Below, piece after piece: positions 41,308 through 43,026 of a stretch of DNA of 57,832 nt (position 1 is its first letter; every line of letters starts with the position of its first letter). The position numbers and the translations under genes were made by a program. The notes under the pieces were generated by a model that was not told the DNA's origin, did no database searches, and saw nothing but the letters and a program-made list of their open reading frames with translations. The DNA lies in NCBI GenBank assembly GCA_018667855.1, contig JABIRL010000350.1, positions 1-57,832 on the forward strand. The letters run 5' to 3'. This DNA comes from Rhodospirillaceae bacterium (lineage in GTDB: Bacteria > Pseudomonadota > Alphaproteobacteria > GCA-2731375).

Positions 41308-41359
41308 GCCGGTCGTTAAAATTGGCTGTTTTCTAAGGATTCTAAATTTCGTTCGAAAA

Positions 41360-41401
41360 TTGACTTAGATCAATGCGCGCCCATAGATGTTTTCCTATTA
41401 T
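41360..41401 (+). promoter_or_regulatory. Candidate class II FNR/FixK-type promoter
   Basis: TTGACTTAGATCAA at 41360-41373 matches the FNR/FixK/CRP-superfamily palindrome TTGAT-N4-ATCAA with one mismatch. TATTAT at 41396-41401 fits a -10 element and predicts a start at about 41408. The centre of the box (41366.5) is then at -41.5, the exact position of class II FNR-activated promoters. No -35 hexamer is needed in that arrangement. It points rightward into a non-coding stretch that ends in an intrinsic terminator. Confidence 0.6.
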
Positions 41402-41432
41402 AGAGAAAATCAGTTGCCGAGAGTTGGCCCCT

Positions 41433-41501
41433 ATGCCGGATCGAGCGTCGGTGGGGCCTGACAAGAGCAACGAGGTGGCTGTCCTAGGACGACTGCCATA
41501 A
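41433..41501 (+). CDS. Possible 22-residue small protein or leader peptide
   Basis: ATG at 41433 to TAA at 41499-41501, starting MPDRASVG and ending LGRLP, lies inside the candidate FNR-controlled transcript. GAGAG stands 9-13 bases before the ATG, a modest ribosome site. It ends 8 bases before the first hairpin. It is hydrophilic without a membrane segment. Too short to judge by composition; could be chance. Confidence 0.25.
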   Translation: MPDRASVGPDKSNEVAVLGRLP

Positions 41502-41573
41502 AGTCCCCTGGCGCTGCAATCCCCTGCTAGCGCCGAGGGCCGCGGCCCCCCATCCGCGGCCCTCAACAATAGG

Positions 41574-41613
41574 AATGGCCGTGTCAATTGCGACACGGCC
41601 ATTTCTTTGTTTT
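41574..41613 (+). terminator. Intrinsic terminator
   Basis: A perfect 12-bp stem AATGGCCGTGTC (41574-41585) and GACACGGCCATT (41592-41603), loop AATTGC, is followed by TCTTTGTTTT (41604-41613). It would end rightward transcription from the FNR-type promoter before the alcohol dehydrogenase gene. The preceding 11-bp stem at 41535-41564 may reinforce it. Confidence 0.75.
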
Positions 41614-41663
41614 GGCTCTTCTTTATCGTTCTTATTTTCTTGGCTGTCATGCTCTAGCAGGCC

Positions 41664-41823
41664 GCTGAAAAAGTCACTCCCGCGAAAGCGGGAGTCCATG
41701 CCTGAATGCCTAATATTTCATAAGTTGTTGAAATATAAACGACTTTAGACTCAGTGTGGATTCCCGCTTTCGCGGGAATGACAACAAAAATCGAAATAGA
41801 CAGCCTTGAAATCGTTTTTCAGC
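41664..41823. mobile_element. MITE-like palindromic element
   Basis: Terminal inverted repeats GCTGAAAAA (41664-41672) and TTTTTCAGC (41815-41823) enclose 160 bases without a gene. Inside, ACTCCCGCGAAAGCGGGAGT (41676-41695) and its near-identical inverted partner ATTCCCGCTTTCGCGGGAAT (41760-41779) each form a hairpin. The motif GTCATTCCCGCGAAAGCGGGAATCCA, here split between copies, is a common proteobacterial interspersed repeat as I recall. It carries no transposase, so would be mobilised in trans if active. Confidence 0.6.
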
Positions 41824-41892: not shown

Positions 41893-43026
41893 ATGGCAAC
41901 CATCACATATCTGACAAAGATCCAGTTCGATTTCGGCGCCGTGCAGTTGTTGGCCGACGAAATGGCGGAATTGGGTATCTCGCGCCCATTATTTGTAACC
42001 GACAAGGGAGTGCGCGCCGCCGGTCTGCTGGATCAGGTCATGGAGCATTTGGCGGATAATAGTGCGGCGGAGATTTTCGACGGTACGCCTGAAAATCCGA
42101 CCGAGGCGGCCATGACCCTGGCGCTGGAACAATATCGCGGAGCGGGCTGTGATGGTGTCATCGGGGTGGGGGGCGGATCATCGATGGACCTGGCCAAGGC
42201 GGTCGCCCTGATGGCGACCCATCCGGGCGAACTGTCCGAATACATGATGATACTGGGAGGTGCGCCGAAGATCACCGCCGCGATCGCACCGGTCATCGCC
42301 ATCCCCACGACGGCCGGAACCGGCAGCGAAGTGGGCCGGGGCGCCATTATGATCCTGAATGACGGCCGCAAGTTGGGCTTTGGCAGCCCCCATGTCATCC
42401 CCAAGGTTGCCCTGTGCGATCCGGACCTGACATTTTCCATGCCCATGATGCTGACGGCCGGCACGGGCATGGACGCCTTCGCCCATTGTTTCGAAACCTT
42501 TTGCGCCCCCGCCATTAATCCCCCCGCCGATGCCATCGCCACCGATGGCCTGGGCCGGGCTCTCCGCTTCGTCGAACAGGCGGTCGCCGATGGCAGCAAC
42601 CAGGAGGCGCGCTGGCAGATGATGATGGCCTCGATGGAAGGCGCCATGGCCTTTCAAAAGGGCCTTGGCGCGGTACACGGTATGTCGCACCCGCTGGGCT
42701 CCATTCAGGACCCGATCCTCCACCACGGCACCCTGAATGCGGTCTGTCTACCGGCGGTCATCCGTTACAATGAGGAATTCGTCGGCGATAAATTTTCCTG
42801 GGTGAAACAGATCTGGGGTCTGCCGCCCAAGGCTGACCTGGCAGATGAAGTCGCGGCCCTGAACGCCCGCCTCGGCCTGCCGGCCAACTTGCGAGAAATG
42901 GGCGTGACGGAGGCGATGATCGAACCTTTGATCCCCCATGCGGTGGCCGATCACACCACGGCCAGCAACCCCCGGCCCCTGTCCGCCGAAGACTATCGCG
43001 CCCTGTTCCTGGAAGCATTGGGTTAA
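41893..43026 (+). CDS. Iron-containing alcohol dehydrogenase
   Basis: A 377-residue group III alcohol dehydrogenase. The NAD-binding GGGSSMD lies at 93-99. The full metal set is present: D194 and H198 (GMDAFAHCFE), H262 or H266 (HGMSHPLG) and H277/H278 (HHGTLN), unlike the relative at 1161-2330. GAGGGAG lies before the ATG at 41893; the longer frame from 41860 is less likely. It precedes the Sir2 gene by 5 bases, so the pair is co-transcribed. Substrate is a primary or secondary alcohol or semialdehyde; lactaldehyde or butanol-type enzymes are closest in kind. Confidence 0.88.
   Translation: MATITYLTKIQFDFGAVQLLADEMAELGISRPLFVTDKGVRAAGLLDQVMEHLADNSAAEIFDGTPENPTEAAMTLALEQYRGAGCDGVIGVGGGSSMDLAKAVALMATHPGELSEYMMILGGAPKITAAIAPVIAIPTTAGTGSEVGRGAIMILNDGRKLGFGSPHVIPKVALCDPDLTFSMPMMLTAGTGMDAFAHCFETFCAPAINPPADAIATDGLGRALRFVEQAVADGSNQEARWQMMMASMEGAMAFQKGLGAVHGMSHPLGSIQDPILHHGTLNAVCLPAVIRYNEEFVGDKFSWVKQIWGLPPKADLADEVAALNARLGLPANLREMGVTEAMIEPLIPHAVADHTTASNPRPLSAEDYRALFLEALG

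Follow-up and report, generated by a model that had tools for sequence, protein, structure and literature searches.

An FNR-box-associated candidate small RNA with conserved C-rich sites in an order of Alphaproteobacteria

Introduction

Small RNAs (sRNAs) that depend on FNR are known, to our knowledge, from few lineages. The available part of a review on the subject is consistent with this picture (PMC8139620). According to the same part, FnrS of Escherichia coli is an sRNA transcribed under FNR on oxygen loss, which represses mRNAs that are dispensable anaerobically, and PcrZ of Rhodobacter sphaeroides is an alphaproteobacterial sRNA dependent on FnrL at low oxygen, with a control by FnrL that may be indirect (PMC8139620). 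A further system, IsrR of Staphylococcus aureus, carries three C-rich regions predicted to be single-stranded, two of them in loops and one abutting a stem. Its first hairpins are conserved with little covariation, its terminator is poorly conserved, and it acts on the Shine-Dalgarno regions of mRNAs for iron-containing enzymes (PMC9410917).

In this work, a window of 57,832 nucleotides was analysed, which is contig C258 of a 5.3-Mb genome in 371 contigs and for which an earlier note had proposed an oxygen-responsive sRNA. The locus is probably a stand-alone, trans-acting, FNR-activated sRNA with C-rich anti-Shine-Dalgarno sites, as judged from the sequence and its relatives. FnrS and PcrZ are regarded as its physiological analogues. 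The RNA predicted here differs from FnrS in being ~206 nt long, with several hairpins and C-rich sites, and in having no Rfam match at threshold. It is set apart from PcrZ, by description, by a conserved FNR box at class II spacing. The likeness to IsrR lies in the layout of three C-rich regions and is not homology; IsrR belongs to Staphylococci and is iron-repressed through Fur.

The RNA is not described in the available text of PMC8139620, PMC9410917, PMC5596092 and PMC4842269, and a search by text, rather than by sequence, of the mostly open literature on FNR- or FixK-linked and C-rich sRNAs found no description of it. It looks like a new family of FNR-controlled trans-acting sRNA, which is an already known type.

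Locus and promoter

The FNR-type box, TATTAT and the terminator-ended region all lie between a 116-aa ORF and an iron-containing alcohol dehydrogenase gene (Table 1). The 116-aa ORF is kept upstream of the sRNA in the window and in 7 of 11 relatives' loci. Just past the terminator, at 41676-41780, there is an element resembling a small mobile repeat, with two inverted CCCGCGAAAGCGGGA copies at 41679-41693 (+) and 41762-41776 (-) and no further copies in the window within 2 mismatches.

Table 1. Positions of the features described in the window.
Feature	Position	Strand	Basis or remark
ORF, 116 aa	40957-41307		upstream of sRNA; no Pfam or NCBIfam match
FNR-type box TTGACTTAGATCAA, palindrome	41360-41373	+	exact match; centre 41366.5, at -41.5 from the predicted start
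-10 element TATTAT	41396-41401	+	first base 29.5 nt from box centre
Predicted sRNA, ~206 nt	41408-41613	+	5' end predicted from the -10 element and class II distance; 3' end from the terminator
5' structured domain, closing stem with inner hairpin	about 41413-41471	+	MFE fold
Hairpin C	about 41474-41497	+	predicted fold; two-sided changes in 3 of 8 scored pairs
Conserved core, 110 nt	41503-41612	+	basis of covariance model R1
C-rich site 1, UCCCCU	41504-41509	+	unpaired in fold; single-stranded, abuts hairpin D
Hairpin D	41510-41534	+	fold; in 11-sequence core alignment 8 of 9 pairs invariant, 1 two-sided change
C-rich site 2, UCCCCU in loop D	41520-41525	+	last U paired
Hairpin E	41535-41564	+	fold; two-sided change in 2 of 11 pairs
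C-rich site 3, CCCCCCAU in loop E	41546-41553	+	CCCCCC at 41546-41551
Intrinsic terminator and T-rich tail	41571-41613	+	stem 41571-41606, 15 pairs
Iron-containing alcohol dehydrogenase	41893-43026	+	same strand as sRNA; best model is 4-hydroxybutyrate dehydrogenase

The near-consensus FNR palindrome of the earlier note is present as TTGACTTAGATCAA. Its centre lies at the class II distance of -41.5 from a start that is itself predicted, at 41408, from the -10 element and this same geometry. The box alone is unremarkable: by chance, 0.77 exact copies of the half-site pattern would be expected in the window, which has 3, and 3 of 100 shuffles also reach 3. Relatives are more informative on this point. 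Of the 12 family loci, 11 carry an exact TTGA-N6-TCAA box that begins 126-154 nt 5' of the core. In 10 of these boxed loci, the -10 element lies 29.5 nt from the centre of the box, which is the spacing of class II FNR sites. A box present by chance would not be expected to keep this distance; the class II geometry claimed at the outset is kept. When the 11 loci were aligned on the box, the mean top-base count was 9.9 of 11 inside it versus 5.0 of 11 in the 28 positions before it, the search pattern having preset 8 of the 14 bases of the box. Moreover, TG follows directly 3' of the box in all 11 boxed loci, without selection by the search, and the T, A and final T of the -10 element, at the 29.5-nt distance, are each kept in 10 of them.

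The eleventh boxed locus, that of G011, has no -10 element at 29.5 nt; the automated scan gave TCTAAT at 28.5, and by reading its -10 would instead be TAATCT at 30.5. In G008 the sRNA is present and the FNR box was not found upstream. By reading, the upstream TTGCAG-17-TATATT would be an FNR-independent promoter, and this genome may possibly represent a natural loss of oxygen control. It can also be observed that G008 shows no match to the 116-aa ORF adjoining the sRNA and that its CoxM-like ribosome-binding site is without a complementary site.

The genes around the RNA bear on whether it acts in cis as the 5' leader of the alcohol dehydrogenase gene, in the manner of an attenuator or riboswitch, in which case the terminator would be the off switch. 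The dehydrogenase lies on the same strand from 41893 and is the next gene downstream in the window and in 6 of the 11 relatives' loci compared over up to 8 kb each (L046, L047, L059, L061, L064 and L070), and the high degree of structure of the RNA would fit a leader too. However, a Sir2 gene is directly downstream in G008 (L055) and G009 (L063), the next ORF in G011 is convergent (L012:968-1474 on the + strand versus the sRNA at 1505-1703 on the - strand; AsnC/Lrp-like by reading), and no riboswitch was found at the Rfam threshold. In G014 the contig ends downstream of the sRNA, and in G006 neither the dehydrogenase nor Sir2 appears before the contig end. Since the downstream genes vary and one of them is convergent, the leader is an unlikely explanation, and a stand-alone RNA is preferred.

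Predicted structure and C-rich sites

The stretch 41406-41613 folds at -106.5 kcal/mol versus -73.7 +/- 4.7 kcal/mol for shuffled sequences (z -7.0), none of the 200 shuffles being as stable. The three consecutive hairpins described before are present at the 3' side, and the fold adds to them the 5' domain and hairpin C. The closing stem and inner pairing of the 5' domain are seen by eye in the single-sequence folds of 10 of the 11 boxed members, G014 being the one that differs. Concerning the terminator, its 15-pair stem and T-rich tail are present, the T-run being interrupted. In G004 (L011) and G003 (L013) the terminator hairpin is longer, with ATCCCCCAT or ATCCTCTAT in its loop, which may be an additional C-rich site.

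The repeated C-rich motifs reported from the window, TCCCCT twice and CCCCCC once, were recovered as sites 1 to 3. The two UCCCCU sites, located in the tail and in a loop, are invariant across the 11-sequence core alignment. Regarding their surroundings, the tail GUCCCCUGG and loop D AAUCCCCUGC are invariant or nearly so, and loop E CCCCCCAU is nearly so, with one C of site 3 changed or missing in G003 and G008 and two changed in G014. Conserved C-rich sites predicted to be single-stranded, as in C-rich sRNAs, are thus present.

Covariation was scored for 49 pairs in a 10-sequence full-length alignment, with G008 and the truncated G014 left out. As much as 95.5% of the cells are paired, and 10 pairs show two-sided change, in 20 two-sided cells. 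None of 500 shuffles matched these 10 pairs and 20 cells and slid controls gave at most 4 pairs, in a comparison where the structure, derived from the same alignment, is favoured in the slid control and where kinship can beat shuffles without structure. The further pair types do not exceed the shuffles (215 of 500 reach the observed value). Pairs with two-sided change are found in the 5' inner hairpin (2 of the 4 pairs scored there, the 5' closing stem being outside the scored set), in hairpin C, in hairpin E and in the terminator (3 of 16 pairs in the full-length alignment). For hairpin D, the full-length alignment shows no pair changed on both sides, and the 11-sequence core alignment shows one. 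Base-pair covariation in relatives, which had been proposed as a check on the RNA, was therefore found.

A short protein was also considered. The window holds an ORF of 22 aa in sense and one of 102 aa in antisense (41342-41650), the latter with a match in G001 that runs over 83 aa without a stop, which would suit a coding region. Nevertheless, the sense ORFs listed for the 10 other transcripts do not include the 22-aa one, and no sense ORF is common to the 11 transcripts examined, as the listed ORFs do not correspond. The antisense matches contain stops in G002, G003, G010 and G011 and are split over two frames in G008 and G009, so that the frame is interrupted or split in 6 of 11 relatives, and there are single-base indels in the core. 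The ORF reading was rejected, and that this region encodes a protein is extremely improbable. The statement that it has no obvious long gene has to be corrected for the 102-aa antisense ORF and holds in the sense that this ORF is not kept in relatives.

Some sRNAs sequester RNA-binding proteins. The near invariance of stem D, beyond the needs of folding alone, would be in line with such a role in place of pairing with mRNAs, but anti-Shine-Dalgarno pairing accounts more simply for the repeated C-rich motifs, and no binding-protein motif was identified by an inspection that was not systematic. Sequestration is hence considered improbable, and pairing with mRNAs through the C-rich sites is retained as the preferred function.

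Comparison with Rfam families

Rfam holds FnrS, and E. coli is a gammaproteobacterium. The Rfam search of the window, also suggested earlier, gave no family at its gathering score. The best match by both bits and E-value was ar7 (RF02342), an alphaproteobacterial sRNA of three hairpins whose loops are C-rich, with 29.6 bits and an E-value of 5.7e-4 over 601 bases; the other 13 loose-threshold matches have E-values from 0.15 to 5. The RNA could be a distant member of this family. Both share hairpins with C-rich loops ending in a terminator, the match reaches 31.7 bits in G001, and the C-rich hairpins come in the same order with the terminator last. On the other hand, 29.6-31.7 bits stand against a gathering score of 60, and at E <= 0.5 a single one of the 12 family loci matched ar7. 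Under strict filters, the ar7 model gave none over the cut-off in 289 class genomes, with two matches below the cut-off elsewhere, and no match in G000, G006, G009 and G013. Membership in ar7 was rejected on the gathering threshold, and a distant kinship is rather unlikely.

The best ar7 match of the class scan lies in G225 (L242, about 1501-1623), at 39.2 bits and below the cut-off. It has three hairpins and C-rich stretches and is directly 3' of an ORF whose end reads small heat-shock-protein-like.

Distribution among genomes

The strongly conserved part of the RNA is its 3' half from 41503. A nucleotide search of 61 genomes (its own and 60 relatives) gave strong matches in 12, all of one family, and 2 short weak ones elsewhere. 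With the covariance model R1, built from 11 sequences, the core was found at 67-134 bits in 12 of the 15 family genomes examined, which are the whole order as sampled; 11 of the 12 matched genomes contributed to the model. Together with the box in 11 of the 12 loci, this bears out the conservation of box and hairpins that was to be looked for with covariance models.

The family genomes without an sRNA match are G005, of the same genus, and G012 and G013, of other genera. The absence in G005 may be an assembly gap, because the Sir2 neighbour is missing too. The single R1 match of G012 has 30.4 bits, which is the background level. In G012 and G013, the Sir2 regions have neither such an RNA (best 11.6 bits) nor an exact box.

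R1 was also run on 386 genomes of the class at E <= 0.01, with strict filters and at most 10 candidates scored per genome. Matches were obtained in 11 genomes, 4 of the family at 125-133 bits and 7 others with best scores of 26-32 bits. In 8 of the 9 places in those 7 outside genomes (L030 being left out) the 200 nt upstream hold no FNR box, even with 1 mismatch allowed. These 8 places resemble ordinary terminators and were rejected as homologues.

Furthermore, an exact-pattern scan of genome contigs gave 27 stretches, 11 of them from family genomes, under a strict pattern that diverged relatives would escape. The other 16 stretches include one R1 match at E <= 0.1, with 19.5 bits. The exact-pattern scan of viral contigs gave 0 stretches, and plasmids gave no match. 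The family contigs found carry names such as Rhodospirillaceae or Alphaproteobacteria bacterium and come from MAGs.

FNR regulator

According to the earlier note, the lack of any FNR/FixK homologue in the genome would speak against the proposal, and one with an iron-sulphur cysteine motif is indeed encoded. It is a 266-aa CRP/FNR protein with CQNCVVRTRAFC and an ETVSR helix, whose best NCBIfam model is FnrL, at 171.5 bits and below the equivalog cut-off of 300. The CX2CX7C motif and ETVSR occur together in 13 of the 15 family genomes (G000 and the top relatives in 12 further ones). All 12 sRNA-bearing genomes have an FNR protein with both motifs, and the thirteenth is G005, where the protein is present and the sRNA was not detected. 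The match in G013 has ETVSR without the CX2CX7C motif, and G012 gives two partial matches, one with the Cys motif only and the other with ETVSR only. The box, its spacing, the -10 element, the core, the structure and the FNR protein are conserved.

Candidate targets

The CoxM-like region was compared in 14 of the 15 family genomes; G007 was excluded on account of its best match, which had 52% identity and an E-value of 7e-11. GGGGGG (G6) precedes the CoxL-like start in 12 of the 14, that is, in all but G012 and G013, which are both without the sRNA and are also distant relatives. AUGGGGGG, a perfect 8-mer complement of loop E, stands at this start in 9 of the 14. By reading, these G's double as the final Gly codons of the CoxS-like gene, but they persist where neighbouring bases change (G000, G005 and G009). 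At the CoxM-like start, CCAGGGGA, a perfect complement of the tail, was found in 7 of the 14 genomes. Against this target, both the G6 and the CoxM site are present in G005, where no sRNA was found, and G008 has the sRNA without the CoxM site.

To judge how common such sites are, 704 gene starts of G010 can be considered, which are simple start calls, some of them surely wrong, and do not include the CoxM gene itself. They contain GGGGGG in 6 cases, ATGGGGGG in 1 and CCAGGGGA in 1. By energy, the CoxL start of G010 (-17.0) is outside the top 45 of 704. For its CoxM start (-16.2), 60 of the 704 starts do at least as well when all sites are considered, and 8 of 704 do for the tail alone. Such energy ranks are unremarkable. 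The 8-mer matches to the sites over the 704 starts number 10, versus 5.3 for shuffled sites, a modest excess that 35 of 500 shuffles reach. The opposite strand of the same regions has 0 matches, which is expected because the sites resemble anti-Shine-Dalgarno sequences.

Among the matches listed, 20 candidate places were picked by eye. Most of their ATGs start no long ORF, and the CoxM-like start (L158 and L159) is the only one of the 20 seen in two genomes. A GST-like gene of G010 (by reading) with an 11-nt match to loop D was discarded, the spacer match being absent among those listed for 7 other genomes.

The CoxL/CoxM-like proteins match xanthine-oxidase-family domains, and the large subunit scores 657 against the CO dehydrogenase model, below its cut-off of 991. 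This CoxL/CoxM-like molybdenum-hydroxylase operon is the best lead for a target of the sRNA, and a tentative one. It is conceivable, if doubtful, that an order-specific and directly FNR-activated sRNA family silences the operon at two sites at once, coxL being bound by loop E (CCCCCCAU) at its G6 Shine-Dalgarno region and coxM by the 5' tail (UCCCCUGG) at its own.

Proposed function and meaning

We infer transcription of the RNA, its response to oxygen, its pairing with mRNAs and their repression from the conserved features, and these would be connected as follows. When oxygen falls, the FnrL-like protein, with its cysteines for a [4Fe-4S] cluster, would bind the box at -41.5 and, as a class II activator, would drive transcription of the ~206-nt RNA up to its own terminator. 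The RNA has three C-rich sites, one in a single-stranded tail and two in loops, which could then pair with G-rich Shine-Dalgarno regions, and this pairing would block the translation of mRNAs that are unwanted without oxygen.

Several of the source assemblies have isolate names (SI072, SI074, Arabian10, BS150m and casp150) that we take to suggest Saanich Inlet, the Arabian Sea, the Black Sea and the Caspian Sea, which by this reading of names would be low-oxygen seas. The conserved box, start and sites yield predictions for low-oxygen metatranscriptomes. If the proposal on the CoxL/CoxM-like operon is true, oxygen loss would shut an aerobic energy or carbon pathway at the level of translation. 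A conserved sRNA with an intact class II promoter would extend direct riboregulation by FNR to uncultured Alphaproteobacteria.
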